Source: Halichondria panicea (lineage: Eukaryota; Porifera; Demospongiae; Suberitida; Halichondriidae). Taken from it: a stretch of 64,000 nt of DNA. Below are positions 18,633-64,000 of the stretch, piece after piece. How positions within the stretch are numbered: position 1 is the stretch's first letter; each line of letters begins with the position of its first letter. The notes below the pieces were generated by a model, which saw nothing but the letters and a program-made list of their open reading frames with translations, did no database searches and was not told where the DNA came from. The DNA lies in NCBI RefSeq assembly GCF_963675165.1, contig NC_087382.1:1860001-1924000 (forward strand). Direction: 5' to 3'. The position numbers were made by a program, and so were the translations under genes.

Positions 18633-34869
<16,237 letters not shown>

Positions 34870-37131
34870 TTCTTCTCTTACAATAGTTTGATTAATACTG
34901 CAATTAAAAGGAAATTGAAGAGATCAATAATATTATTGTATTTGTTATGATGTGCATGTACGTGCCTATTATAGCATAAATGGTAGAGATATGCAAACCA
35001 TGTGACTTTACACACACAACGCTATACACTATAATATTATAGCAATAATTATGAGACAGCAAATTAGGTTGTATTTACAAACTTCAGAAAACCTACTATA
35101 TAAGCAAAGCAACCTTACCAACCTAGACACCAACTAGACACCAACTATAAGCAACCATGCAGACACACTTAATGTAGCAATCCAAAAATAGTGTCATAAA
35201 CTAATTTAATGATAGCACACGTAATACAGGATACAGTAATTAGTCACGACTTAGTCATAAACCACTGGACATTGTTACATACATTCCTTAATTGCCAACA
35301 GCTGTGCAATCAACAGCTCCAAGGCGATGGAAACATCATCTCCATGCAACCCAACTAAATGCTTTTAATCAACTAACTAACATGTACTTGGCAAGCTTAG
35401 ATATTCCTTTTGTATTTCCTTTTTGTATTTGACACCTCTAGACTATTTGCAGACTGTAGCCAGAACTGGTAAGGATTCAAAGCCTTTGTCGGGCAAACCC
35501 AAACCACTGCCAATTTTGGGCAAGCAATGAACTTAGCTTAATTAAAGCGTGTCTAACACGTATCTAACATAAAGCCAGTATTTTAGTTGTTATAATTATA
35601 GTGGCTTTATACTCATGCAGGCAGTGTTCAGATATAACCGCATGCCCATGTCGCTCGCATGAGCGCTGAGGTGTGTAAGTAGCTTACGTAATAAATGCAA
35701 TGCAATGCAATGATGCTCTAACTGCATTTTATATGGCCACAGGCAGTGGTGAGTGTGAGTGTAATTCTCCTAAAATATCTCCATGACAATAGAAATAGAT
35801 TGGCTGGGGAGTACAGAGCTATAATGCATTATAGCTGGCTTTGCTCTTGGCACGTAGTGGCTGGACACACTCCAAACACACACACACACACACAGACAAC
35901 AATAGGACTACATTCGTACCTACATTGATAGCTTTATATACAACACTATGCATACGTTCCACACTGCACTGTACTAACGAGTACGAGTACGCTAACGGAC
36001 AGAAATACGATATTCTGTGTAAACCTAACACCATTATAGCAATCTAACCACTATAACAATCCAACTAACCAAACTAACCAATGCTATATGCTAAGTAAAC
36101 TTTACAGACAAACTATTATTAAAGTATACATGATTTTTACAAGCACCTCAGCTAGCTAGCCTACGATATTCGACTAGGAGTAATTCGAGGCCTCTAGCGA
36201 CCTCTTATCACTCTAACACAGCCTCAGCGCTTTGTCTAACATACCTTAAACATCGCCACTACATTGACTCCTGATCTTTGTGTATGAGGCCACTCGAACA
36301 GGCTCGTACTCAGCTCATTGTAGTAGGAGAGCCACTCCCCCATTTTGGTTTCATTAGTGGAGCCACTCCCTTTTTTTTTTACTGAGGGTTAAAGAGGGTG
36401 TGGTCTTGGTCGAATGACCACTAGATTACGGAGATGTTTTACAGAGAGGTGTCCAACAATAGATTACTGGCATAAGTAGTTTTACGACATTGAAGTGATT
36501 TCATAGACGGAAATCCGTAATCTTCTCCGTAATAATTAGCATAAAAAACCACAACAAGACACGCCCCACAAAATTCCATTTTAGCTGAGAAGCCCTGTAG
36601 TGCTAGCGCTAATATAATGGTGTTGTTTTTGTAGATACCTACACAATTGACTACGCTTGGCTTTGACTGTGCATATGTCTGCGCCATTATTAAGGCCTCT
36701 GATTGCAGCATCAAAGAGATACTCTGCAGTCCGAGTCATCATTGACACATCAGGTGGGCCAGCAATCAACAACAATGCTGTCATTAGTGGTATTATGGTT
36801 TGGCTCAGTTTCAATGTACTTTAATAGACCCAGTAGCTATATCTATCAGACATAATAACTAGTAGTGTGCAGCAGCTATAGATATAATTACAGTGAAATA
36901 TAAATTAATTGCAGTGAGCTGGAGAGAAGTGAAAGTTGCCCTGCAAAGAAAACTGAGTAAGATCAATTGCTCCTACAATTTATCTTTAGGTGAGTTGTAG
37001 AGCTGACATGCATACTTATTAGTAACTAAACTAACAGTGTACACTGTATTGTGCAGCATTGTGTCTCTACTATAATAGCTGGCTCTCATGTGACATTGTC
37101 ATTTCCTACCTAGCAGTGCTACAGCTACAAG
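34870..37131. other. Intergenic stretch between scaffold gene and Frizzled
   Basis: The two genes are divergently oriented with 2.26 kb between their start codons. The region contains a short CA run (35875-35893) and AT-rich sequence. An open frame on the minus strand (36581-36814) begins like a signal peptide but has no supporting homology. Promoters of both genes are presumably here; no specific site is recognisable. Confidence 0.5.
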
Positions 37132-38799
37132 ATGAGGCAGCTCAAGTTACAAGTGCTGCTCTCCACGTTATTATCGTATCTTTCGGTGGTTATTGGGCAA
37201 TCGTGCAATTTCAGCCCCAACCCAAACGCTCAGTGCCTCCCTGTACTAAACAACGTCTGCAAGACTGTCGGCTACAACATGACATCACTACCAAACTTAT
37301 TCAATCACTCGACACAGCAAGAAGCCGAAGCATTTTTTAACAAAATAGCACCCATATTTCATACGAGCTGCTCCGTATATTTAGCTCACTTTCTCTGCTC
37401 TGCAACACACCCTATCTGTTTTCCGAATCAGTTTCAACAAATTCATCCGTGCCGAGAGTTGTGCACGGCTGTGAGAGAAACCTGTATACCCACCCTTCGT
37501 CAGATCGGCCTAGAATGGCCGGATGAACTCGACTGTACTCTTTACAGCTCCTACCAGGACTCCCTGTGTGTGTGGACTCAGGCCAACCCGTGCAGCACGA
37601 TGGGAAGATCGATGAACGAAGATAATCGAGTTATTGTCAATAGAGTGAACGTGAATTGCTCCGGACGCCTTGTCAAACTTCAGAATTCAAGTAATTATGA
37701 TTTCGGAAGTGTGAAGCATTGTACCGAGCCTTGCAGTGGTGTGTATTTTGACCAGGAGAAGCAAGAGATTCTGTTGATTTGGATCACTATCATCAGTTTG
37801 ATCACTCTCCTCGTGTGCGTGATTATTTTTCTCACTTTCATATTCAACTATAGAAAAATCCCAAACCTCGAGACTCCTATCTACTATATTGCAGTTTGCT
37901 ATGGCATCTCTTCGTTAACCTATGTCATTTCGATAACTATTGGCAAAGAATCTATCATCTGCAATACGGAATTTAAAAATCAGCATAACGAGAGTGCCCT
38001 ACTCACGAATGCGCAAGACCACCCCCTGTGTTTGATTCTATTCTGTGTTCTCTATTATTCGATTCTTTGCACCTGGTCTTGGTGGGTGATTTGTAGCCTT
38101 CAATGGCTTATAACATCTCTCAAGTCCACGAACATGTCAACCAAATGGAAGATATGTTTTCACATAATTGCATGGTGCATTCCGCTTGTATTCACTCTGA
38201 CAGCACTCTCACTGGGTCATGTTGCCGGAGATGCCACTGTTAAAACCTGCTGGATTGAAAAGCACTATGAATTACCATTTCTTGTTGCTCCATTGTCGAC
38301 TGCTGTGGTTATATGTTCCGTCGTTCTTGTTGTGTGTTTTGCACGAGTCGTTAAACTTCAGAAATCCAAGAAACCTGAATCAGATATCGCAAAAATAAGT
38401 GCTTTAACTTTGGTCCGTGTTGGGCTCTACTGTACAGTCTATTTGATTCCTATGGGACTCTTGTTATGTGCCTATTTCTACGAGTTTTGGTACAGAGAAG
38501 AATGGGAGATACAGTATTTGAAGTGTGTGAATTCAGCAGCTAGTAACTGTGAAAATAGCGGCTCTCCCGTTTATGCAATCTTCATGATAAAAATAGCGTC
38601 TATGTTGAGTATGGGAACTGTGTCTTTGTTGTGGATACTCAGATCTGATTTGATAACAATCTGGAGGAAATTTTGTTGCTTTTGCACTACAAATGTGCCC
38701 GAACATAACATTGTTTATACACCAAATGGAAGGTATACACCAACCTTTCAGCTTCATCATGCCATGGATTACCCCACTTCTAGTGATTCGTCTGTTTGA
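37132..38799 (+). CDS. Frizzled receptor (single exon, no KTxxxW)
   Basis: Wnt-type receptor of 555 aa in one exon. Signal peptide at residues 1-22 (ending VVIGQ). Frizzled cysteine-rich domain at about 24-150 with the expected spacing (CNF, QCLPVLNNVC, FLCSATHPIC, HPCRELC, LDC). Seven membrane segments follow from about residue 212 (ILLIWITIISLITLLVCVII), with family features YYIAVCYGISSLTYV, the TWSWWVICSLQW segment of TM3 and SLGHVAGD in extracellular loop 2. The juxtamembrane motif KTxxxW, which binds Dishevelled in canonical Frizzleds, is replaced by DLITIW (Trp-511 kept, Lys and Thr lost). Several N-glycosylation sequons occur in the ectodomain. The C-terminal tail is short (44 aa after Trp-511). 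Whether it signals through Dishevelled is open. Confidence 0.93.
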   Translation: MRQLKLQVLLSTLLSYLSVVIGQSCNFSPNPNAQCLPVLNNVCKTVGYNMTSLPNLFNHSTQQEAEAFFNKIAPIFHTSCSVYLAHFLCSATHPICFPNQFQQIHPCRELCTAVRETCIPTLRQIGLEWPDELDCTLYSSYQDSLCVWTQANPCSTMGRSMNEDNRVIVNRVNVNCSGRLVKLQNSSNYDFGSVKHCTEPCSGVYFDQEKQEILLIWITIISLITLLVCVIIFLTFIFNYRKIPNLETPIYYIAVCYGISSLTYVISITIGKESIICNTEFKNQHNESALLTNAQDHPLCLILFCVLYYSILCTWSWWVICSLQWLITSLKSTNMSTKWKICFHIIAWCIPLVFTLTALSLGHVAGDATVKTCWIEKHYELPFLVAPLSTAVVICSVVLVVCFARVVKLQKSKKPESDIAKISALTLVRVGLYCTVYLIPMGLLLCAYFYEFWYREEWEIQYLKCVNSAASNCENSGSPVYAIFMIKIASMLSMGTVSLLWILRSDLITIWRKFCCFCTTNVPEHNIVYTPNGRYTPTFQLHHAMDYPTSSDSSV

Positions 38800-40105
38800 T
38801 ACCACCTGTTTAAAGAATCTCCCTATCTGAGGGGAGGACTGTGAATTGTGATGCTATCATGTCATCAACCAAACTCTTTGAAACTCACTCCCTCAGAATT
38901 CAGGCTCTTTATCGTGGGGCAAATATGAATATGCTTTATGGTCATGTTGTTTTATTGTTCACTACCACTTGAGGGTTACCGCAAGTGTGTACTCAAAGTC
39001 AATCAACTGTTAATGTGAATGTGCCAGATAAGAGATGTGTATGCATGGCCAGGGCTAAACTGCATGTGTAATGTGTTCACTGCTAGTGGACCAACAAATG
39101 CAATGATTATATTATTATTAGCCGGCCTGCATGATTAGTCTGTATTTTGTTTTATGAATGATTTTGTGAAAGTGTTTTGGTTACAAGAGCCAATTGTATA
39201 AGGGTGGGTATACCCTGAGGGGAAACACTTAGCTAATAGTATTCCGTATAAATATGTACATGCATCATAATTATAGCAATTGTTTGTTTGTTCAAAGAGA
39301 TCGAGCTTATAATGTATATATTCACATGTGATAGCTAAGCCTCATTAATCTGAGTTTGACAATAAGGGCATGACACAACGGGTACTAAGGCTGTCTCTTG
39401 ATTATAGCAAGCAATTTTAACATGTACTACCATGTGCTACTGGTACTGGTACTATATGCCTATAATTATAATAGGCATGTAGATGCATGTAGTTACTGTA
39501 GGTACATTACTGGAAAAGTGGTAAAAATTTAATTAGGTATACTAAGGCTGTCTTTGATTATAGCAATTTCAACATGTACTAACTATGTGCTGCTGGTACT
39601 ACCTATATGTAGAAATAGAGCAGTCTAAACACGAGTCAACATTAATTTTATGCAATAATTGAAAACACACACTATACTGCACTGTCAATCCTATATGTAC
39701 AACCTACTGATAGGTACGATAACCTTACGGGAAAAGGAGTAAAAATTTAATTACCAAAAATCCAGCATACAACGATTATAACGTGTTTTGTGTCACACTA
39801 GCTTACAGCTTGCAATTAAGGGTTTAGCAGAAAATTGTCTATCCAGTTAGCCCTGGGGCAAGCTGTGAGGTGCAGCTAAAGGGTGATTGGCTTTGACTAT
39901 GAAAGGGCGTGCGACAGTAGTGCCACAGAGAAGGGTGAGAAAAGTCACAGGAAGAATGGAATGCAGAGGTTAATAGTTTCTTTCACACTTTTGACAGCAC
40001 TTGAATAAGGATAAACTACACCAATCTTCACTCCTTCTCACAGTGAGGGTCAGATTTTCAAGTATCTTCTCTCTGGGCTCTCTCTCCATCTCTCAGAGCT
40101 GAAGA
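38800..40105. other. Intergenic stretch with a local duplication
   Basis: No coding sequence seen. Two related units at about 39380-39450 and 39538-39605 share actaaggctgtct, ttgattatagcaa and aacatgtacta. The stretch 39650-39710 resembles the loop of the foldback element at 7886-8329. The Frizzled 3' end and the T-box promoter must lie here. Confidence 0.5.
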
Positions 40106-42006
40106 ATGGATTCTCCCTCCGACCCTCACCAGCTCCCTCCATACTTAAGGCCCTACAGCTATCCTGCTGGTGGGCACAGCTATGGCTACTACTACCCTCC
40201 TTCCTCCTCTCAAGCTTCAGCAATGAGAACCCGCGGTGAAGATGGCAGCGAGCCACCAAGAAAGCGCATGGCAACGGGAGCTGGCTACTGTCCTCCCCCG
40301 CAGCACGCAAATCTCTTCAGACCAGTCGACTTCGATGCTCCAGCGGTGAGCGCAAGGTTGGTTGGCCACAGAGCTAGGAGAATGCCTGTAACACCAACAG
40401 GTTCAAACTGCTCTGAGGAAGACAGCTGGTCGCAGGAGGCCAGTGGTACCCAGGCGGTGATGGGGAAGGACTCTACGTACAACAAGGAGGGCATCACCAT
40501 CGGTCTCCAGGAAGCAGATTTGTGGCATTCCTTCGCCAGTGTCGGTAACGAGATGATCGTTACTAAGCCTGGAAGGTACGTCGCCTATTCGTATAAAGAT
40601 TTGCATTTACGGCCTTACTTTATAATAATAATTGTAGTAGAACCGTAATTCATTCTGATCGTATAATATACAGTCATACGTAGTATAAAATAGCGATCTA
40701 TAGTTGAACAGTATTGGCGGTCTTTTGGGTGATAATTGTGAGGATGCATTTCTCCTCATTTACATATTAAAAGTGTCGATAGATTGAATTCCACTTACAT
40801 GTGATCACGATTATCACCTCTTCTCTCTCTTTCTCTCCTCGATCTGCAGACGCATGTTCCCATCTCTTCTCGTCAGTATAAGAGGCTTGGAACTGAATGC
40901 CAACTACTCCATCTCCCTAGGAATTAAAGCAGCCGATAAGTACCGCTACAAATTCCTCGGCATGCGTTGGGTGCCGATGGGGGAGTCGGAGATCGTGCAA
41001 GACGAGTCTCGCCAAGTGTATCACCATCCCAACAGCCCTAAGAGTGGTGCCTTCTGGATGAAGAAACCTATCAGCTTCAAACCTTGCAAGATCACCCACA
41101 ACACTCACTCAAAGCATGGAAATGTAACTTATTACTGCCTCCCCCCCCCCTCCCCCCCCTCCGTCCCCACTATCTCCATTCTCACCAACAAGCAGTTAAT
41201 TAAGATGAAAATTGCAGCCTTAAATCTTGAGTAGAATTGTATGCATCACCAAACCTTGTGAAGACCTGAACTGCACTCAATCTTTTCCCTATACTTTTAG
41301 AAGCTTTTCCTATTTAGTATAAATTAGCTCTACACTAATTATGAGAGAAGGCATTTGTATAATAACTACAAGTTGTTTCATTAACATGTTATTTCCCTGT
41401 TCAGATTCTCCTCCATACAATGCATAAATATGTGCTGAGTGTTATAGTCAAGAAGATCGGAGTTGTTGAGTCAGAGACGATCATCGTGCTCACTGCCACA
41501 GAGTTTATCACCGTGACAGCCTACCAGAATTCTAAGCTCACTCTGCTCAAAATCAACAACAATCCGTTTGCTAAAGGATTTCGTGAGAGAGAGTTGCTCC
41601 CAGGCTGGGACGGAGGCAGTGTTGCCATGCCATCCATCCACCCCAGCATGCCGTGGTTCAACCCGTCCATGCTCGGCTATCAACAAGAGTTGCCTAGTAA
41701 GTTTGTTGCCTGGTAAGTTACAGTTATGAGTTAAAAGCATATTGTATAATTATGTGTATAATTAAAGCTATCAACAAGTACAGCTAGTAAATTAAAATGA
41801 TATCTATCTTTGCAGGTGTTGCCTCCTTCACACCGAGTGATTCCTCGGCCAGCTCTCCCAGTCCCGCCCACTCGATTGCCCCCTCCCCGGCTCACGCCCA
41901 CGACTTCATGCCGCTCACCTATCCCTATGTCCTCTCCAGAGACCAGAACATCACCACGCCAACGATGATGTCAGAGCTGACGGAAGAGATAGCAGAATCC
42001 CCTTGA
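40106..42006 (+). CDS. T-box transcription factor, divergent
   Basis: DNA-binding developmental regulator, about 408 aa. Exons: 40106-40575, 40850-41123, 41405-41696, 41816-42006; phases agree. The N-terminus is Pro/Ser/Tyr-rich with a basic stretch (PPRKRM). The T-domain starts near residue 129: [58 protein letters not shown], and [20 protein letters not shown] followed by NPFAKGFRE. Core contact motifs of the family are intact. The HxFPET block before TEF is replaced by [11 protein letters not shown], and the MD(F/I)V segment by LGIKAAD, so I cannot assign it to Brachyury, Tbx2/3 or Tbx4/5; a sponge-specific class is possible. The C-terminus is Ser/Pro-rich. Confidence 0.92.
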
Positions 42007-52087: not shown

Positions 52088-52264
52088 CTATAGTGAGATT
52101 AGAAGATCCTCTGCCTGATCGAATGCAGCCTCGCTCTGCTGGGGGTCAAGGGTGAACCACAGCACACTTCCTCCCACCTGTCACAGGTAGTACACTGTGC
52201 ATATTCTCCTTACCCGCAGAGAAGCCCACCAAGCGACCACACTCTGGCTTCAGTAACAGGCACC
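52088..52264 (-). pseudogene. Prolyl 3-hydroxylase last-exon pseudogene fragment
   Basis: On the minus strand this matches the terminal exon of the gene at 61291-63405 almost base for base (KPECGRLVGFSAGKENMH, then the QAEDLLISL end). It carries a short insertion near its start and an 8-base deletion at the AVALWF position, which shifts the frame and destroys the C-terminal strand with the 2-oxoglutarate-binding Arg region. The His after NM is retained but the following Gly is Ser. Confidence 0.85.
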
Positions 52265-54390
52265 TGGAGTTTCAGACATTCGATCAACGATACAATGTTA
52301 TGGCTATTCACCACCCTCCTCTGTTTAATCAATGGTTCGGGGACTCTTTCAGTCGCCATGCTTGAGTTCTATGGGCAACAATTTTGTGATTTCAAAAATA
52401 TAGCTACTTTTAAATGGCCATGGTACATGGTGTCATGCAATGAACCCCCAAAACAGACCAGGGTGGCTGGCAAAAAATTGGAGTTATGCACTTGCCAAAT
52501 TTCCAAAAAATTGCAGCAAAATTCGATGAATACACAATGTATCCATAGATAGTAAAGGAAAGGGATTGGAAACGCATCACGTGCACCAATGTTTTCAACA
52601 GAGCTTGCGTGTCACCATCCTACTTACGATTTTTAATGTTATTCATTGTTAGTCAAAAGGTCATTTTGTTGTTTTTTGAGCTATATTTTTGGACTTCAAG
52701 ATCATTCTTTCAGCGTTCAAGCCAATCAAGTAAGCTGTTTGGGTACATAAAACATAAGCTTTCCAATGGTAGTGGTCCCATAAAGTTTGGATGGTGTATT
52801 GCACCCCAAAAAGTGTTTTTAAACCTTGAAAGTTAGGGTGAGTTTACAGAAGCTCTATTGCTCAATGTAAGGTATTATGGATTGGTTACATGAGAGAATC
52901 TTGTTCTTACATAATAGAGCTATAGTATGATAATTATGTAGCATAAGCCTCATATTGCATGGATTAGTGAGTTACAATCTGCTTTAAGTAAAAAATGTTG
53001 TACTATAGTGACAATTTTGTGGAAGCTATTTCTCAAATAGACTTTTGCAGATTAGCTGTATTGTTTTATATTATTGTAGTACTCATGCTAGAATGTAGTA
53101 TGCAACTGATTTTGGAGTGATCAGGGCATCTATTCGTGATTTACAGCAACTTTTATATCATGTTTTTTAAAGTGATTAATTAATTGTCTTTTTTTAGGAT
53201 GTGAAGCAAAAAGCTTGTAAGAAAAGGTGCAAGTCCTCCTCAACCGTTAACCAGATCCCACTCTCTCTCAACAAAACAAAAGCATCTAGGAAGACATGAA
53301 TTCAACAATGTCATCCATAAGACATTTAGTAACCTCACCTGTCACCTCATCATTAAGTATACATAATTATATACATGTTTATTTTTGCTTGTGTGTATAC
53401 ACTGTAGTTTTGCAACCACTTACTTTAAACATTATATAATATAATTTATTGACATCCCTTAGAGTACAGTATTACACTTATGATTAGTGTCAAGACTCAC
53501 AAAGGGAGTTTAGTAAGATAATAAATACATTGCTGTCGTGTTTATAATTATGTAACTAAAATAGATCTAGCTTTTTTTACTGATATGGATGCCATCATGA
53601 AGCCCTTATCCCTTAACTACACTGTCCACAGTATGAGCTTAGACATGCTTAGGGCTCCAGTTTGAGATACTTCTCATAATTATACCATGTGGCTTCGATT
53701 TACGCCGCAATGGAGGGCCTGTAATCGAGGCTACAATCTGTAAGTAGGATGGTGACATATTACGTAATGCGTTTCCAATCCCTTTCCTTTACTATCTATG
53801 ATGTATCATTATAAAACCATAAACAGAGTCACAACAAACCACAAAAAGTCACTTTAACAAAACATTACTACGTTTTGATAGATCATGTGGCCATTCTGAC
53901 CTCTGACCTGGACCACTAATCGGTGTTTTTTTTAAAAATCAGTATGACCCGGAAAATCCGTGAAACATAAGATTAATTTAGTGTGGCCATACTATCTATG
54001 CTTGGACTTTTGGCATTCTAACAATCATGGTCGATCATTACCCACTCTTTGAGTTTCCCTGAGATCCTGGATTCTGCTTGCATGCAGCAAAATTAATATG
54101 TTCATCATGATATAATAAATTATAATGTGTATATAAGCTATTGCTCTAATAGCATTAGCTAGACTATAGTAGCTTTATGTTATGTAGCTTTAACACCTCC
54201 ACCGAGGCATCAGCACCCGTGGTGCTTTCATTATAATAATAATTATGATCTATATAATTATAGTAAATGTACATGTATATTGTATGCAACGAGAATGATG
54301 CGTAAGCACGTACAGTGCATGTAATAGTTTGGCCAACAAAGTGATGTAATGTACAAAGTGGGTAACCACAAAGTGGCATTGATATCTGAC
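52265..54390. other. Intergenic stretch between pseudogene fragments
   Basis: No gene is supported. The middle exons expected for a prolyl hydroxylase are not visible. Fragments of low-copy repeats occur: caatggttcggggactcttt at about 52330 recurs at 62951 near the intact gene. The stretch 53985-54236 belongs to dispersed repeat family R. Confidence 0.5.
53985..54236 (-). repeat. Dispersed repeat family R, partial copy
   Basis: Contains acaatcatggtcgatcatta, cccactctttgagttt, agctttatgttatgtagctt and the terminal block ccgaggcatcagcacccgtg plus gtgctttcatt, all shared with the copies at 56193, 58650, 60760 and 63443. Confidence 0.8.
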
Positions 54391-55372: not shown

Positions 55373-58300
55373 TCACCTTCGTGCTCTCTTGGCAACTGCA
55401 ATTAGGATATAATTATACCATGCACACATGCCTCTACTCTATATACATTTGCATACCTTGTGGTCCATTGGCAATTTTTAAGATGGCGCCCTCAACGTCT
55501 GAGCACAGGTTGTCTAGACCCACAGCCTTTGATTCGAGAGCACTCAGGAAAGTTTCAAGGTAGCAGTTAGAACCGCTTTGAAACCACTTCAGCAGCATTG
55601 CACGGAAACACTCTCCAACATCCAAAGGATTGTTTGTCCTAATGGCACTCAAATCGTCCCCAGACAAACCCAGATTATTACCAATGTTTGACCACTTTCC
55701 CCTTCCCCTGTACGCAGCGTCATACAGAGCGTTGAGGTACGGCTTTTCAGAGGGGGAGAGTTGGACTGTAAAAATGAATACAGGCTTGTATATAATTATA
55801 TGTACATGTACTTTATTAAGTGTAAGTTTGATGTCATTGTTGCAAGCTTCCTATACTACCGTATAGCAGGTAATTTTCGGGGGACAAAATATTCGTGGTT
55901 CAGCAATATTGAGACATTTCGTGGATAATATTTTCGTGGTTGCCGTGCTTGGATTGTAGGTAAAGGTAGGCAAGGCCGCTTCATTCGTGGGTAAAATATT
56001 CGTGATCAGACCTCCAACCACGAAAACCACGAATATTTTGCCCCACGAAAATTACCAGCTATACGATATTAGATCTATACCCATGTAAGTGAGGATAGAT
56101 GATAAACTTAAATAGCTGTATACATGCAGACTCAGGGTGCAATGTCTTTTTATGAAAGAAGTCAGCCTCCAATGCAGGAACAGTAGCATAATTATGCCTC
56201 GGTGCGCACGGCGCAAGCGAGGTATACGGTAGTGTGTTTGTGTGTGTGTGTGTGTGTCTGTGTAGACTGCTACAGCTGCTCAAGGATGAGTTTCTATAGG
56301 CTTCTAGTCATGTTTACTTGGATTTTAATTCGTGAATAATGCTTCATTCTCGAGTTATGCCTAGTTTTGCTTACTTGGAATGCCATTGCAGCCTTTTTAG
56401 AAGAGCATGTAGCCAAACTTGTTTACCGAGTGTTGCTAATCTACTTAGTAGTTAGCTCTGCACTAGAACGCTAGCTATTGGTAGCTGCAAGAGTGAGAAG
56501 AGAGCTGCAAGGCTCTGCTGATGGCAGCCATTAATTTTAGACTTGAACTTTTGGCATCGATCGTTTTAACAACAATCATGGTCGATCATTACCCACTCTC
56601 TGAGTTTTTGCCAGCAGCAAAATTAAATTGTTTTTATCATGTGCATAAAAGCTATTAGTAGCAGCTTTATGTTATGTAGCTTTGGCATCTCCACCGAGGC
56701 ATCAGCACCTGCGGTGCTTTCATTATCATAGCTATAACTATACCTAAAAAGGGTATTTGTGGTTTTACTATGATGCCCTTGCTCTGGACGAATGTATAAG
56801 TACATGTTGTGCAAACCATAAATTAGTTGTATAGGCTCATGCATGCAGTTCCCAAGAATTAGGGACTAGAACAATCTTTACCAAGACTGAATATGTTTTG
56901 ATGGTAAACATAACGTTATTCCTGTGCACTATAATTAATTGAATCCACTCACTTTGCCCGTAGGAAGGTACAGCTCGCTGTGGGACTGAGCCTGATCCAA
57001 GTGAGAGTGTAAAAGATATATAGACAGATATAAATTATATATATAGCCTTTAGGTAAAGCTTTTACTACTGTATATATATAGTACTTACTGTTGTTTGGG
57101 GTCGGAGAGGCTGGTGACTCTCCTCCTAAAATCACAAAATGTAATGCATGAATATATATAAGTGAATGGACACACCGTAAATCTTTTGTAGAAAATCAAG
57201 ATCTTTCTCTGAAGGCCCATCAGCACAACTCCGATGTCTCTTGTGAATCCCTCTCAAAACTGTCTTTGCTTCTTCACTGAGACATCTATCAGCCTCAAAT
57301 TTTAATAGAGTCTTGTGGTCCTTCTTTTTAAGCCAGTTCACATCAAACCTATAGACATAGCACACAACAGTAATAATTATATATATAGCCGTATATAGTG
57401 CGAAATTTTTGAGGCACTGAAATTTCGTGGAATAGCCTCTAACAGCATTTTGGTGAATAAATTTTGTGAGTTTAACTGCTTATATTGAAAGCCACGCCAT
57501 TAATCTTTGCACGTTATTAGCAGATTTCGTGCATATTCGTGTAGGTGCTAACCCACGAAACGAAAAGAGCGGAAATTAAACCTCTCAAAGATTTCGCTAT
57601 CACTCTGGAATTGTTACAATTTACCAGTAGTGCATGATGCTGTCTGGATCGTATGGCGATATTGTTGTGGGACCTTCTGACTCCATTTGCAAAATATCTA
57701 TGCCAAAATTCACGTTCTTCATTCGAGAATCCTTTTTCATTTTTTCCACATCCAACAAGCTGTTCGCTACCTTCCAGAAGTCAGAACGCTGGTGCTCGTG
57801 GAACAGACCAAGAGCATGGCCAAACTCATGCATGACAAGAAATTTCTGCTCGTTGGGTACTTTACCATTTAGTGAAAGGACCATTGTGGGCTTAGACTTA
57901 TCTACAACTTTCGTCGCTTGGCTACCAACCTCGGAATGAGATCTATCACCTGTGCGGCCAAACACTGCTTGGATTCAGAATCTTAAAATAGTTAGTACCT
58001 TCTTCAAACTTGACTCTGATGTCAGCTGATTCTGGCCTACCCGTCTTCTTAAAGATTGGAATATTGGGACACTTCTTGGTATTCCAAGCGGCAGCCCAAC
58101 TAAGGATATTAGTGGTGTTGAGTACACCATACTCACACTTCCAGTTTTCCTGATCAAGAATTTCGGGATTGAGAAAGTGGACATTCAGGACGTCCTTCTC
58201 AGTCCAGATGTTGGAATTTTGAGCGTAGGCACCAGCTCCTGCCTGGTTAGCATCACTCGAGGCTGCAGCTTCGTCTGCAATCAACGATTCCGTGCAGTAT

Positions 58301-59848
58301 GTCTGTAAATACGTATCAAGTAAAGTATATGCATGGGCATTTCCTATCAAATATACTTGCTAACCAAAGTTGGTGAAACCAGGGGCTCTTCAGTCATACC
58401 AGGGGAAACTGGAGTTGGCTGGTCTTGTGTCCTCTGCAATTAAATACATGCAGTATACATGCAGTAACTACATAAATTATGGTGGTTTGGAGGTAAGGAT
58501 ATAAGGGAGCTGCATGGGTATGCTTCTTTTAGCCTCTCAGAGATCGATGCATTGGCACAGCCGGGAGTGCACATACCCATCATAATCACTGACGTGACCA
58601 ATCTTAAACTATTTATAGAGCATAAAACAAATTAGAATGCCATTAATATACCTCGGTGTACGCATGCATGCGCGCGAGGTGTACGGTAGTGTGTTTGTAT
58701 GTCTGTGTGTGTATCAATGAAGTGCAAGTAAGAGCTTTTATAGTCATGTTTTTTTGGATTGCAATTAGCCAAAATATTCGAGTTATAGCTATAGGTTTGC
58801 TCATGGGAAGGCCATTGCAACCTTTTCAGAAGAGTGCGTAGCAAAACTTGTCCATGGAGTGTTTTAGTAGTTAGCTCTGCACTAGAACGCTATAGCTATT
58901 GGTAGCTAAAAGAGTGAGAAGAGAGCTGCAAGACTAAATTGATGCATGCAACCATTAAATAATATTTCAGACTTCGGACTTTTGGCATCCTTTTAGAACA
59001 TATACAATCATGCATGGCTAGTCGATCATTTCCCTTTGTCATGATAATTATGTCATTGTGTGTATTATAGCAGGAGCTCATAAACAAGAGCAGCTGACTT
59101 CAACGTGTACTCGGGGATCACGTTTCGTAATTGCCAGTGAAATTGCACTTCCTTGTATGGAAGTAACTATAAGTGCTTGCAAACCGCAGCCCTGTATTGC
59201 ATATAACACGTATATAGGGATTCGTGGCTCTGCATATATTGAAATGCGGTCATAACCACTTATGAAACGTGATCCACGTAGTCAGCCGCTCCTTCTCTTA
59301 TTTATGTATTAGCAATAGCTACATAGTATATATATAGCTTTATGTTAGGTAGCTTTAACACATCCACTGAGGCATCAGCACCCACGGTGCTTTAGATGCA
59401 GAGTAAATACAGTCGGACATGCATACACGGTATTTATACAATCTGGCTGGGACTTTCAAAATTAAGGGGATGTATAATTATCTTGCTACAATATATATAC
59501 TACTCTTGCAAAGCAGTTTATATCAAAGTCTATAGTATCTATACATGTACGATAACTAAGCATCTGCATGTAGTTTTACAAAACCCTGGTAGATCTATTA
59601 CTATATATAGTATAATTCACACTCACCGTTGGCACTGCATTTATCTGGCATCCATCTTGTACCTCCTCGAATCTTGTCAGCTTTTTGTATTTATTAAACC
59701 TTTCACTCCATATCTGCAGATGAGAGATGCTGCCTTTGTTGAGTGTTTCTTCAACAAGAACTTTAAGAGTATCAATGCTATTAGATTTAGTAATATCAAT
59801 CTCTTCATTGCTATCTTCATCCCGGTTAAAAACCACTAGAGCAGCCAT
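55373..59848 (-). CDS. Beta-grasp / astacin-like protease / death-domain protein
   Basis: Predicted intracellular zinc protease of about 504 aa. Exons: 59848-59627, 58433-58365, 58302-57999, 57964-57625, 57348-57176, 57125-57090, 56991-56953, 55765-55457, 55395-55373; phases agree throughout. No signal peptide (MAALVVFNRDEDSNEE). Residues 1-74 look like a small beta-grasp fold of ubiquitin-like or doublecortin-like type (weak, by eye). A Pro-rich linker leads to the protease: VMHEFGHALGLFHEHQRSD (zinc ligands His-244, His-248, His-254; catalytic Glu-245) and Met-turn DSIMHYW (Met-309), both diagnostic of the astacin/metzincin clan. A Ser/Pro linker precedes a six-helix death domain at about 398-485 (KWSNIGNNLGLSGDDLSAIR, FRAMLLKWF). 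It ends VAKRARR. All catalytic residues are present. Astacins are normally secreted with an N-terminal propeptide, so this layout is unusual. Confidence 0.85.
55859..56066. mobile_element. MITE with CCGTATAGC ends
   Basis: The left end ccgtatagcaggtaattttc and the right end, read in reverse, atcgtatagctggtaatttt are inverted repeats; the similarity continues through acaaaatattcgtggtt and aaccacgaatattttg for about 45 bp. Length about 208 bp. It lies in the intron after exon 56991-56953 of the protease gene. Confidence 0.85.
56193..56728 (-). repeat. Dispersed repeat family R, near full-length copy
   Basis: Runs from tgcctcggtgcgcacggcgc, then a TG microsatellite (56232-56258), through cttctagtcatgtttacttg and agtagttagctctgcactag to aggcatcagcacctgcggtg plus ctttcatt. 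It matches 63443-64000 in reverse complement over its whole length. No ORF. It lies in an intron of the protease gene. Confidence 0.85.
57389..57604. mobile_element. MITE with CCGTATATAGTGCG ends
   Basis: The left end ccgtatatagtgcgaaattt and the right end, reversed, gtgatagcgaaatctttgag are imperfect inverted repeats, with more pairing inside (ctgaaatttcgtgg and ccacgaaacg). Length about 216 bp. It sits in the intron just after the exon encoding the zinc-binding motif. Confidence 0.7.
58650..59398 (-). repeat. Dispersed repeat family R, copy interrupted by a MITE
   Basis: Matches 56193-56728 from cctcggtgtacgcatgcatg to aggcatcagcacccacggtg, but is split at 59070 by the 236-bp element at 59071-59306. 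The insertion shows that the MITE moved after this copy. It lies within the first intron of the protease gene. Confidence 0.85.
59071..59306. mobile_element. Second copy of the CAGGAGC MITE, one end truncated
   Basis: Starts caggagctcataaacaagag and ends gccgctccttctcttattta plus tg, matching 26429-26686 in reverse orientation inside (gtactcggggatcacgtttc, tgcaaaccgcagccctgtat). The last eight bases of the right terminus are missing. It is inserted in dispersed repeat R. Confidence 0.85.
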
Positions 59849-60759: not shown

Positions 60760-60943
60760 CTCACGCACACGGCAGTAATCATTGTGGATCATTACCTACT
60801 CTTTGTGATTTTGGATTCTGCCTGTATGCTAAATAATGCAAAAATGTTCATCATGATAAAGCTATTGCTAATAGCTAGTAGCTTTATGTTATGTAGCTTT
60901 GAATCCACTGAGGCATCAGCACCTGCGGTGCTTTCAAGCGTTT
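60760..60943 (-). repeat. Dispersed repeat family R, fragment
   Basis: Contains ggatcattacctactctttg, agctttatgttatgtagctt and aggcatcagcacctgcggtg plus ctttc, the terminal part of family R. Confidence 0.75.
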
Positions 60944-61290: not shown

Positions 61291-63405
61291 TTATAGTGAG
61301 ATGAGTAGATCCTCTGCCTGATCGAAGGCTACCTCGCTGTGCTGGGGGTCAAGGGTGAACCACAGCGCCACAGCACACCTCCTCCCACCCGTCACTGGTA
61401 GCACACCGTGCATGTTCTCCTTACCAGCAGAGAAGCCCACCAAACGACCACACTCGGGCTTAACGAGTACCTAGAGTGTGTGTGTGGGGAGAGGGGGGGG
61501 GGGCGTTGATTTAGGTATACATGTAGAGTACAAATAATTATGTGCATGTGTTTATTGTATGAAGTAGAAGCAGCTGTTGTTATGTATTATACGTAATAGT
61601 TGCACAGGACGTAGTAGAAGCTAAGCACACATTGCACATGTACTATACGTGCTTATATTAGAATGTACTCTGATAATCATGACACACTCGCACACACACA
61701 CACACTCATACCCACACGCACCCACCCACCCACACACACCCACACACACACACACCCAAGCACACACACACACACTCATACCCACACGCACCCACCCACA
61801 CACACATGCTATATAGTTCTAGTAACTCACATCTGGGCTGAGGTCTTTGGTAGAGTGAGCGTAAAAGAATTCTCCTCCTTCAAAATCTTCCACTCCATTC
61901 AAATACAACAAGGCACTACACAAAGGGACACAGAGGGACTGGTCAAATAACACCATATGCTTTCTTCAAAATGGAAGATTTGGGCACAAATGCAAACACA
62001 ATAGCTCTATCAAAGAGCTAATAAATGCACATTTTAGCAGCAAAGTTATAGATAGCTATCAGAACAGGTTAGTGTTAGCAGTTACCGTAGTGCTAAAAAT
62101 GTATTCGTGATACAACTAATACGAGTGTCGCATCTGTATTGCATATAGCCATTATTCTCGGCCTGTACAAATCTGCATTACCATCGCGGTGTTGTTTAAT
62201 AGAGGAAATAAATTAATAAATTGCACAACATTTTCGTAGCCTTTATAATTGGCCAAAACGCAATAATTATTTTATGCTCGCATAATTATAAGTATAATTA
62301 TACCTGTAATCCCTCCAAGTGTAGGCAGGGGCCACTTTGTTACATTCTCCCGTTAGGTCGTCAAGGATACAGTTGTCAGAGTGGACGGGGTGACTTAGAT
62401 CACGATGACTTTCCTGCTTACCTAGCGGGTCGCCATGGAAACAGGTGATTAACAACACAACAGAGGCGATCAATAAATTCATCACGTATCATAACCTCAT
62501 AATAATTATAAACATAGAAACAAACAAAAATTTCTTTTGGCACGCATTTAATCCAAAGTTCAAAGGACACTCCAAGGTTCAAAGTATAGCCCACCCCCAC
62601 ACACACCTTCCTTTGATGTACGACACACGAGATATGTATAAGAGAAGTAGAGAGGTGACTCCAACTTAAACACTTTGGCAACCATGTCTTTGCTCCACCT
62701 ACTAGCATTGACATACAGCCAGGAGAGGGACGGCTCTATCTCACCGTACGATGATCTCTGTAAGTGGGTGGGGCTTATATAAGGGGGTGTGGCTTGCATA
62801 TATACAACTATATATACACCCACATGGGAACAAGGGAAGGGTAGCCGAAATTATGGCCCAGCCAAATTAAAACACATCACTTCTCTCTGAGCTTATAATT
62901 ATTGTTGAATTGCATGGGACAAAGTTATGGCTGTTGAAAAATGTTTCAATGGTTTGGGGACTCTTTCAGCTGTCATAAATTGAATCCATGATTTTCCAAA
63001 AGCTTAGAAAGAAACCTTTCAAATGGTGTCATCAAAGTTTATATTTGAGAGATAAAATTATTTGATAATAATTTGGCCGTACCATGGTCCAAGGCCGAAA
63101 AATGACAAATTATGGTCCCAACAAAATGTTGGATTTAAACACACCATTTAAAAGGTCTCTTTCTAAGCTTTCAGAAAATTTTGACATTGGATCAACGATA
63201 CTAAAGTTATGGCTGTTGAAAGATGTTCAACTACAACCCCCCCCGGCCCCGCTTAATAATGAGTAAGCACAGCACAGTACATGATGTAATGTACAAAATG
63301 GTAGTGACCTCTGACCTTTGCTGCCTCCAGAAGGTGAAGGCCTTCAAATTTCTCGTTCTCTGTATGCGGAGATTTTCTTTCGTATCCATCACCCTCCTTG
63401 CCGTA
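61291..63405 (-). CDS. Prolyl 3-hydroxylase (leprecan family), catalytic C-terminus, 5' part outside window
   Basis: Hydroxylates proline in collagen-type chains using Fe(II) and 2-oxoglutarate, normally in the ER. Five exons seen: 63405-63316, 62757-62607, 62421-62304, 61915-61831, 61470-61291 (about 207 aa). They read SPHTENEKFEGLHLLEA, SPLYFSYTYLVCRTSKEG, HRDLSHPVHSDNCILDD, AYTWRDYSALLYLNGV, EFFYAHSTKDLSPD and KPECGRLVGFSAGKENMHGV. Iron ligands are the His and Asp of PVHSD and the His of ENMHG; the 2-oxoglutarate-binding Arg is in GRRCAVALWFTLDP. The protein ends QAEDLLISL with no KDEL-type retention signal. The N-terminal TPR-like region and signal peptide are not in the window; the DNA beyond 63443 is a repeat. 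A decayed duplicate lies at 52088-54490. Confidence 0.92.
61690..61805. repeat. CA-rich compound microsatellite with an internal duplication
   Basis: Consists of cacacacactcatacccaca plus cgcacccaccc, repeated twice with a pure CA spacer. It lies in the intron before the last hydroxylase exon. Confidence 0.9.
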
Positions 63406-63442
63406 CTGTGTGTGTATGTGTGTGTGTGTGTGGTGTAACTGA

Positions 63443-64000
63443 AAGCACCGTGGGTGCTGATGCCTCGGTGGAGATGCCAAAGCTACATAACATAAAGCTA
63501 CTAATAGCTTTATACAAAATATTAATGATGAACATTTTTGCATTAATTAATTTTGCTGCATGCAAACTCAACGAGTGGGTAATGATCGACCATGATTGTT
63601 GTTAAAAACGATCGATGCCAAAAGTTCAAGTCTAAATTAATGGCTGCCATCAGCAGAGCCTTGCAGCTCTTTTCTCACTCTTGCAGCTACCAATAGCTAG
63701 CGTTCTAGTGCAGAGCTAACTACTAAGTAGAGTAGCCAACACTCGGTGAACAATTTAATTTGGCTACGTGCTCTTCTGAAAAGGCTGCAATGGCATTCGA
63801 AGTAAGTAAAACTAGGCATAACTCGAGAACGAAGCATTATTTTGCAAATTGACGAATTAAAATCCAAGAAAACATGACTAGAAGCCTATAGAAACTCTTA
63901 CTTGCACTTCCTTCAGCAGCTGTAGTAGTCTACACACAGACACACACAAGTAGTCCACAGACACACACAGACACAGACACACACACAACCGTATACCTCG
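63443..64000 (+). repeat. Dispersed repeat family R, near full-length copy reaching the window end
   Basis: Starts tgaaagcaccgtgggtgctg plus atgcctcgg and runs to a CA-rich tail and ccgtatacctcg at the window edge. It matches the copies at 56193-56728 and 58650-59398 in reverse complement. It lies immediately upstream of the first visible hydroxylase exon, inside that gene's intron. Confidence 0.85.

Follow-up and report, generated by a model that had tools for sequence, protein, structure and literature searches.

Death-fold complexes act through caspases, kinases and adaptors, and the question raised by the locus described here is whether, in a sponge, a zinc metalloprotease of the astacin family (M12A) could also serve them. 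The locus lies in a stretch of 64,000 nucleotides (positions 1860001-1924000 of contig C6 in the 131 Mb, 39-contig assembly of Halichondria panicea), which as a whole we call the window, and it is a minus-strand gene at 55434-59848. We propose, with a probability of roughly 0.6, that the product of this gene is a cytosolic zymogenic M12A zinc protease that serves death-fold signalling complexes as their effector. The proposal is based on the order of its parts (beta-grasp domain, prosegment with a cysteine, catalytic core, death domain) together with the lack of a signal peptide, and on the conservation of catalytic residues in the aligned H. panicea relatives and the expansion of the family with differing N-terminal modules. 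The architecture is well supported; the activity, localisation and activation of the protein we infer.

The gene comprises seven exons that join in one frame of 486 amino acids with GT-AG borders at every intron, in agreement with the single in-phase model of an earlier sequence-only reading. That reading had placed the gene at 55373-59848, of which the start at 59848 stands but the coding end is 55434. Its exon model was also amended in two places: the exon-4 acceptor at 57964, which adds five residues, was dropped in favour of 57949, 15 nt on, because the five intervening residues are missing from relatives, and a 39-nt exon at 56991-56953 was made optional. The exons, numbered with the optional one included, are the following.

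Exon 1, 59627-59848, minus strand: carries the start codon and encodes residues 1-74, which form the N-terminal beta-grasp domain; it ends in phase 0.
Exon 2, 58365-58433, minus strand: residues 75-97, a linker rich in proline; symmetric 0-0.
Exon 3, 57999-58302, minus strand: prosegment including Cys100 (codon 58296-58294), followed by the N-terminal stretch of the catalytic domain, from Trp130.
Exon 4, 57625-57949, minus strand: zinc site HEFGHALGLFHE (H239, E240, H243, H249, E250; from 57830) and Met-turn SIMHY (M304, Y306; 57641-57627).
Exon 5, 57176-57348, minus strand: residues 307-364, the C-terminal portion of the protease domain.
Exon 6, 57090-57125, minus strand: linker, symmetric 1-1.
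Exon 7, optional, 39 nt, 56953-56991, minus strand: open and in phase, adding 13 linker residues when included; its splice sites are retained in the tandem copy.
Exon 8, 55434-55765, minus strand: residues 377-486, forming the C-terminal death domain, then the stop codon.

The same domain order occurs in RefSeq relatives, in an intact tandem copy and, by eye, in the predicted protein P0028, so that a chance origin of the spliced model is very unlikely and the architecture of the window gene is well supported as real.

The catalytic core carries the zinc motif HEFGHALGLFHEH (from 57830) and the Met-turn SIMHYW (from 57641), as had been recognised before, and it matches the Pfam Astacin profile PF01400 well above the cut-off (6.5e-9; 36.2 bits against 22.5, in the first 491-residue model). 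The signature HExxHxxGxxHE, including the family glutamate, is complete in the window gene and kept in nine of the ten rows of alignment A1, in which the window gene is included, and the Ser, Met, His and Tyr of the Met-turn SxMHY are invariant in all ten rows (SIMHY in the window gene). The EXXRXDRD motif that follows the third histidine is incomplete, the window gene reading EHQRSDFW with the R and the first D kept and the final RD absent. An inactive protease is unsupported for the window gene and the A1 rows, whose zinc site and Met-turn are complete apart from one Gly of Geodia P0014. The window protein had no match to the caspase family in Pfam results up to an E of 5, its core being that of a metzincin.

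Just ahead of the catalytic domain, 30 residues before Trp130, stands Cys100, the only cysteine shared by all ten A1 rows; the sequence-only reading had the motifs of the protease region right and had overlooked this conserved prosegment residue. A cysteine 45 to 15 positions ahead of the first catalytic Trp was found in 16 of the 17 sponge-type rows that could be judged, the seventeenth having it at -12, in 71 of 89 other M12A rows and in 98 of 530 control windows; the rows are not independent, and the figure for the other M12A rows is inflated because some carry a lipoprotein-like cysteine in that stretch. These counts come from 126 rows, from which 15 without a located Trp (P0011 and P0028 included), four too short upstream and P0008 were left aside, and P0021, a fragment and close relative, is counted among the other M12A rows. 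In P0028 a cysteine lies, by eye, 11 residues ahead of the Trp. The cysteine switch of myroilysin is known from a review (PMC9848320), and by its likeness we infer that in the sponge, too, the enzymes are zymogens held by such a switch.

In the case of the family to which the gene belongs, a protein search recovered nine protease-bearing H. panicea RefSeq clusters, P0001-P0003, P0005-P0009 and P0011, all annotated as 'uncharacterized protein' (P0006 and P0008 being isoforms of one gene), and a profile search, from which the best 120 of 258 matches were considered, added P0017, bringing the total to at least nine H. panicea RefSeq protease genes besides the window gene. Both Pfam cut-offs are passed by P0003, P0006, P0009 and P0017. 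In a further H. panicea protein, P0004 (LOC135332887), death domains precede a protease that breaks off after its first part and has no zinc site; as read from its gene model P0004 appears to be a rearranged or truncated family member. Outside this species the protease is joined to a death-like C-terminus in P0014 of Geodia barretti, a sponge of another order, and in the predicted proteins P0019, P0022 and P0028, whose contigs are so short (2061, 1868 and 2731 bases) that the sequences look unspliced or derived from cDNA. P0028 (508 amino acids) has by eye a beta-grasp-like start and hence the same domain order as the window gene. A survey of sponges, proposed by the sequence-only reading, thereby returned the architecture in H. 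panicea relatives and the tandem copy and a part of it, the protease with a death-like C-terminus, in Geodia P0014. At the level of the genome, 12 of the 45 places with a zinc-site exon have a same-strand death exon downstream within 8 kb and no intervening protease, compared with a single place in the strand-flipped control. The 12 fall in five neighbourhoods (C1, C2, two on C3, and C6), and the count was identical whether 77 of the 227 death rows were used, as at first, or all 227.

The N-terminal modules apparently vary across the family. A beta-grasp start is found in P0001-P0003 from their alignment with the window exon, P0003 being the least clear; SAM-like starts are seen by eye in P0005 and supported by a sub-threshold match in P0022; Pfam gives P0017 a death-like start, and P0006 and P0009 have one when judged by eye; and P0007 has a sub-threshold CARD match. 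For the window gene itself the N-terminal beta-grasp domain that had been read from the sequence agrees with the structure model of exon 1, which has the ubiquitin-like order beta-beta-alpha-beta-beta-alpha-beta, one of five models being confident (predicted local distance difference test, pLDDT, 83.8, against 47-52 in the remaining four). Counting the window gene, homologues of exon 1 occur at six places in the genome, each of them upstream of protease exons on its own strand. The Pfam check envisaged by the earlier reading thus succeeded for Astacin and Death, both above their cut-offs, but gave no family-specific beta-grasp match: window exon 1 had no Pfam match above a cut-off, and a PB1 match of 0.0038, under the cut-off, was obtained in the C8 relative only. 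PB1, DCX and CIDE-N are tied in the fold matches.

The C-terminal six-helix death domain of the sequence-only reading is upheld by a narrow pass of the Pfam cut-off and by the fold model of a paralogue, in which the six-helix fold is present. Death domains of the window type match two places on C5 at 58-60%, and a ZU5-death protein of H. panicea, P0102, whose contig has the length of C5, is 73% identical to P0001 across the death domain. These likenesses suggest domain shuffling, and suggest P0102 as a possible homotypic partner of the protease death domains; such a ZU5-death partner is, we presume, reminiscent of PIDD. P0102 (C5:6103050, C5:6062103) has several death-like domains.

Where the protein resides was approached with a simple hydropathy measure rather than a trained predictor. 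A signal-peptide-like N-terminus is absent in all 14 sponge-type proteins, in which no 10-residue stretch within the first 40 positions exceeds a hydropathy of 1.5. Four further M12A relatives, of which three are named bacterial, do have one (2.6-3.4). P0011 has one internal hydrophobic stretch. The in-frame triplets TAA-GTT lie directly 5' of the ATG at 59848, so that a signal-peptide exon could extend the frame upstream only by splicing between the TAA and the ATG. The claim that the protein has no signal peptide therefore holds, and the upstream signal exon by which the sequence-only reading would have let itself be overturned is opposed by this same stop and by the N-terminus lacking hydrophobic character; a secreted astacin with a missed signal exon was set aside on these two grounds.

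Analysis of the origin of the protease used a tree of 74 of 129 rows, omitting named fragments, rows labelled OTH with fewer than 190 residues, every second remaining OTH row, and L001, which has one stop. Eighteen sponge-type rows, with P0008 (the isoform of P0006) and P0015, share one branch (99/87) whose neighbours, where named, are bacterial or fungal, long branches being present, and a branch of their own (100/100) unites seven secreted-type H. panicea astacins. Approximately unbiased (AU) tests rejected neither a union of sponge-type and secreted-type proteins (p 0.19) nor a single clade for the sponge rows (p 0.31). Because the grouping with secreted astacins survives the test, we go no further than to call bacterial capture of the protease possible, and review PMC9848320 proposes transfer in the opposite direction.

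Taking these results together, the mechanism that we favour would run as follows. Cys100 would cap the catalytic zinc and keep the enzyme latent, as in myroilysin and the matrix metalloproteases, while the death domain would dock onto homotypic partners such as P0102 and the N-terminal module (beta-grasp, or SAM-like or death-like in relatives) would provide a second contact for sensing or cross-linking. Crowding or cysteine oxidation could then release the switch, and neighbouring molecules could cut one another in the stretch from Cys100 to Trp130. The N-terminus exposed by this cut might pair with the conserved family glutamate E250, and the cut protease would remain tethered through its death domain. 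The active protease would cut intracellular targets in cell death, self/non-self recognition or antimicrobial defence, a logic of initiator caspases with metzincin chemistry. Recruitment of a protease to death-domain complexes, with caspase-like logic and zinc chemistry, had been the suggestion of the sequence-only reading, and the analysis supports it.

A wider claim, to which we would give somewhat less than an even chance, is that demosponges may possess a caspase-independent death-fold arm. It would consist of an expanded, modular set of metzincins with a cysteine switch that work inside the cell, are brought in through C-terminal death domains and interchangeable N-terminal modules, and are activated by induced proximity; the protease was maybe captured from bacteria, and no zinc protease would have been so employed in animals before. 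The gene and its sponge protease-death family are real; a role as a new signalling arm is putative. If the claim is true, a protease class would join the signalling of innate immunity and cell death at the root of the animal tree, animals may have a protease other than caspases wired into their death-fold complexes, and the family would be a natural setting in which to ask whether a metzincin can be activated by induced proximity via its cysteine switch.

Several observations weigh against the proposal of a death-fold effector protease. The match of the window protein to PF00531 Death is barely over the cut-off (7e-5; 23.3 bits against 22.6, again in the first 491-residue model), the matches of P0002, P0005 and P0011 fall below it, and no Pfam Death match was found in P0001, P0007 and P0008 or in the C-termini of P0014, P0019, P0022 and P0028. 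Profile comparison of these last four gave weak probabilities (43, 24, 4 and 28, respectively), with a maximum of 2.2 in shuffled controls (20 each) and with P0022 only marginally over its shuffles (4.2 compared with 0.96); death-like domains at the N-terminus, of which two were compared, reached just 1.5 and 9.7, which indicates a low sensitivity of the comparison. For 33 of the 45 protease places no qualifying downstream death exon was found by reading exon by exon with the best candidates scored, and nine of the 45 have a same-strand death exon upstream, as tandem clusters produce. The prosegment cysteine varies in the wider alignments A2 and A3, the position is by eye an Arg in P0004, and the prosegment, on which the proposed Cys-zinc contact depends, has a pLDDT below 50 in the structure model. 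The one A1 row that departs from the zinc motif is Geodia P0014, in the Gly only (D for G in HExxHxxG), and among eleven relatives inspected outside A1 the zinc-site residues are altered in P0020 (HQ), P0023 (RY) and P0025 (NQ), which are possibly pseudoenzymes or pseudogenes. P0019, a near-twin of P0014, retains the Gly. Finally, the immune or cell-death role is assigned through guilt by association.

The same caution applies to the sequence evolution of the gene. A tandem copy, L039 (C6:1931788-1935775, within C6:1930001-1938000), lies about 12 kb from the window gene with an intact frame (497 amino acids under the first exon-4 acceptor). The three coding indels between the two copies are all multiples of three, and splice sites and catalytic motifs are kept. 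Identity is 97-99.7% from intron 5 onward and 66% in the first intron, which may reflect recent gene conversion or else a composite duplication. The ratio of nonsynonymous to synonymous substitution rates (dN/dS) between the copies is 1.72 in exons 1-5, not significantly greater than 1 (Fisher p 0.19), for which reason diversifying selection was rejected, and it could not be computed for the near-identical death exon. Against three C3 paralogues dN/dS ranges by exon between 0.5 and 1.1, being about 1 in exon 4, and two exon-4 stretches have single stops just past the Met-turn, at the exon end. Fast protein change with fixed catalytic residues in these copies fits conflict genes and also relaxed constraint.

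How well do other explanations account for these data? The most serious of them, though in our judgement an unlikely one, takes the product as a real intracellular protease for processing or quality control that the beta-grasp and death domains only localise to a constitutive scaffold, such as an ankyrin/ZU5-type membrane skeleton; tandem expansion, the varied N-terminal modules (death-like or SAM-like in other relatives) and dN/dS values of about 0.5-1.1 between paralogues fit conflict or immune genes better than such housekeeping. Less likely again, the window copy might be a decaying or very recent duplicate without a function of its own, only some paralogues being at work. The non-significant dN/dS of 1.7 against the tandem copy and their nearly identical 3' halves lean that way, as does the lack, among the matches listed, of a RefSeq protein at least 90% identical to the window gene, which also counts against our own proposal; the intact frames of both copies, their frame-preserving indels and the retention of splice sites and catalytic motifs speak for working genes. 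A secreted or unconventionally exported defence protease, with the death domain for oligomerisation only, is improbable: characterised astacins are extracellular according to review PMC9848320, but none of the 14 sponge-type proteins has a hydrophobic N-terminus by the hydropathy measure, a stop stands just upstream of the ATG, and A1 has no invariant cysteine besides that of the prosegment. The 1.2-1.3 kb intron between the post-protease linker exons and the death exon would allow that a protease gene and a neighbouring death-domain gene were wrongly joined, the least probable reading of all, rejected on the RefSeq relatives, the in-phase tandem copy and the short-contig proteins that combine protease and death-like C-terminus.

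Other features were noted in and around the gene. A palindromic element, GAGGCATCAGCACC..GGTGCTTTC, which looks like a small transposable element, recurs in its introns and flanks at 54204-54229, 56696-56721, 59369-59394, 60910-60935 (+) and 63441-63466 (-). Pieces resembling, by eye, a prolyl hydroxylase-type oxygenase flank the gene at 61291-61470 (-) and 52103-52552 (+, antisense) and perhaps belong to the duplicated unit. Elsewhere in the window two very similar inverted open reading frames (ORFs) at 25172-26281 (+) and 27161-28297 (-) appear by eye to be secreted and fibrinogen-like, an ORF at 37114-38799 (+) has by eye a Frizzled-like cysteine-rich domain and a seven-transmembrane region, and ORFs at 40103-41234 (+) resemble by eye the exons of a T-box transcription factor.

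The sequence-only reading knew of no described family with this domain order, and none was found in open-licence literature, mostly judged by titles and abstract openings and with subscription literature outside its scope, where no description of a death-domain astacin came to light. In the accessible sections of PMC8195603 and PMC7159879 astacins are named once, in a reference title, and the rows shown of PMC11788884 contain no astacin-death fusion. Metazoan astacins (astacin, BMP1/tolloid, meprin, hatching enzymes) have, according to PMC9848320, a signal peptide, an Asp-switch prodomain and extracellular partner domains, unlike the window gene; that review's main text nowhere uses the word 'death'. 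Myroilysin and the bacterial M12A astacins (PDB 5zjk, 5gwd, 5czw) differ from the sponge proteins in a hydrophobic start, present in all three named bacterial relatives checked, and PF00531 is absent from the named bacterial matches listed, unlike the window gene. Bacterial conflict systems likewise couple death-like or other adaptors to effectors, among which the sections available describe inactive zincin-like metalloprotease domains (PMC8195603) and rare metallopeptidases (PMC7159879), but these systems are prokaryotic and multi-protein, and an astacin-death fusion is not described in those sections. The death-fold/TRADD-N fusions of the sponge Amphimedon (Kaur et al. 2021, PMC8195603) are likewise a sponge expansion of death-fold modules with variable effectors, caspase included; they differ in that the potential effectors given in its section 10 are caspase, PNPase and HD, with no metalloprotease, and TRADD-N was not among the Pfam matches of the window protein and the relatives searched. 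Caspases with CARD, DED or death-fold partners, as in the PIDDosome, differ in being Cys proteases with no sequence relation to the zinc metzincin of the window, for which activation by proximity is a proposal; they likewise join a protease to a death-fold recruitment module, with several paralogues and a presumed zymogen.

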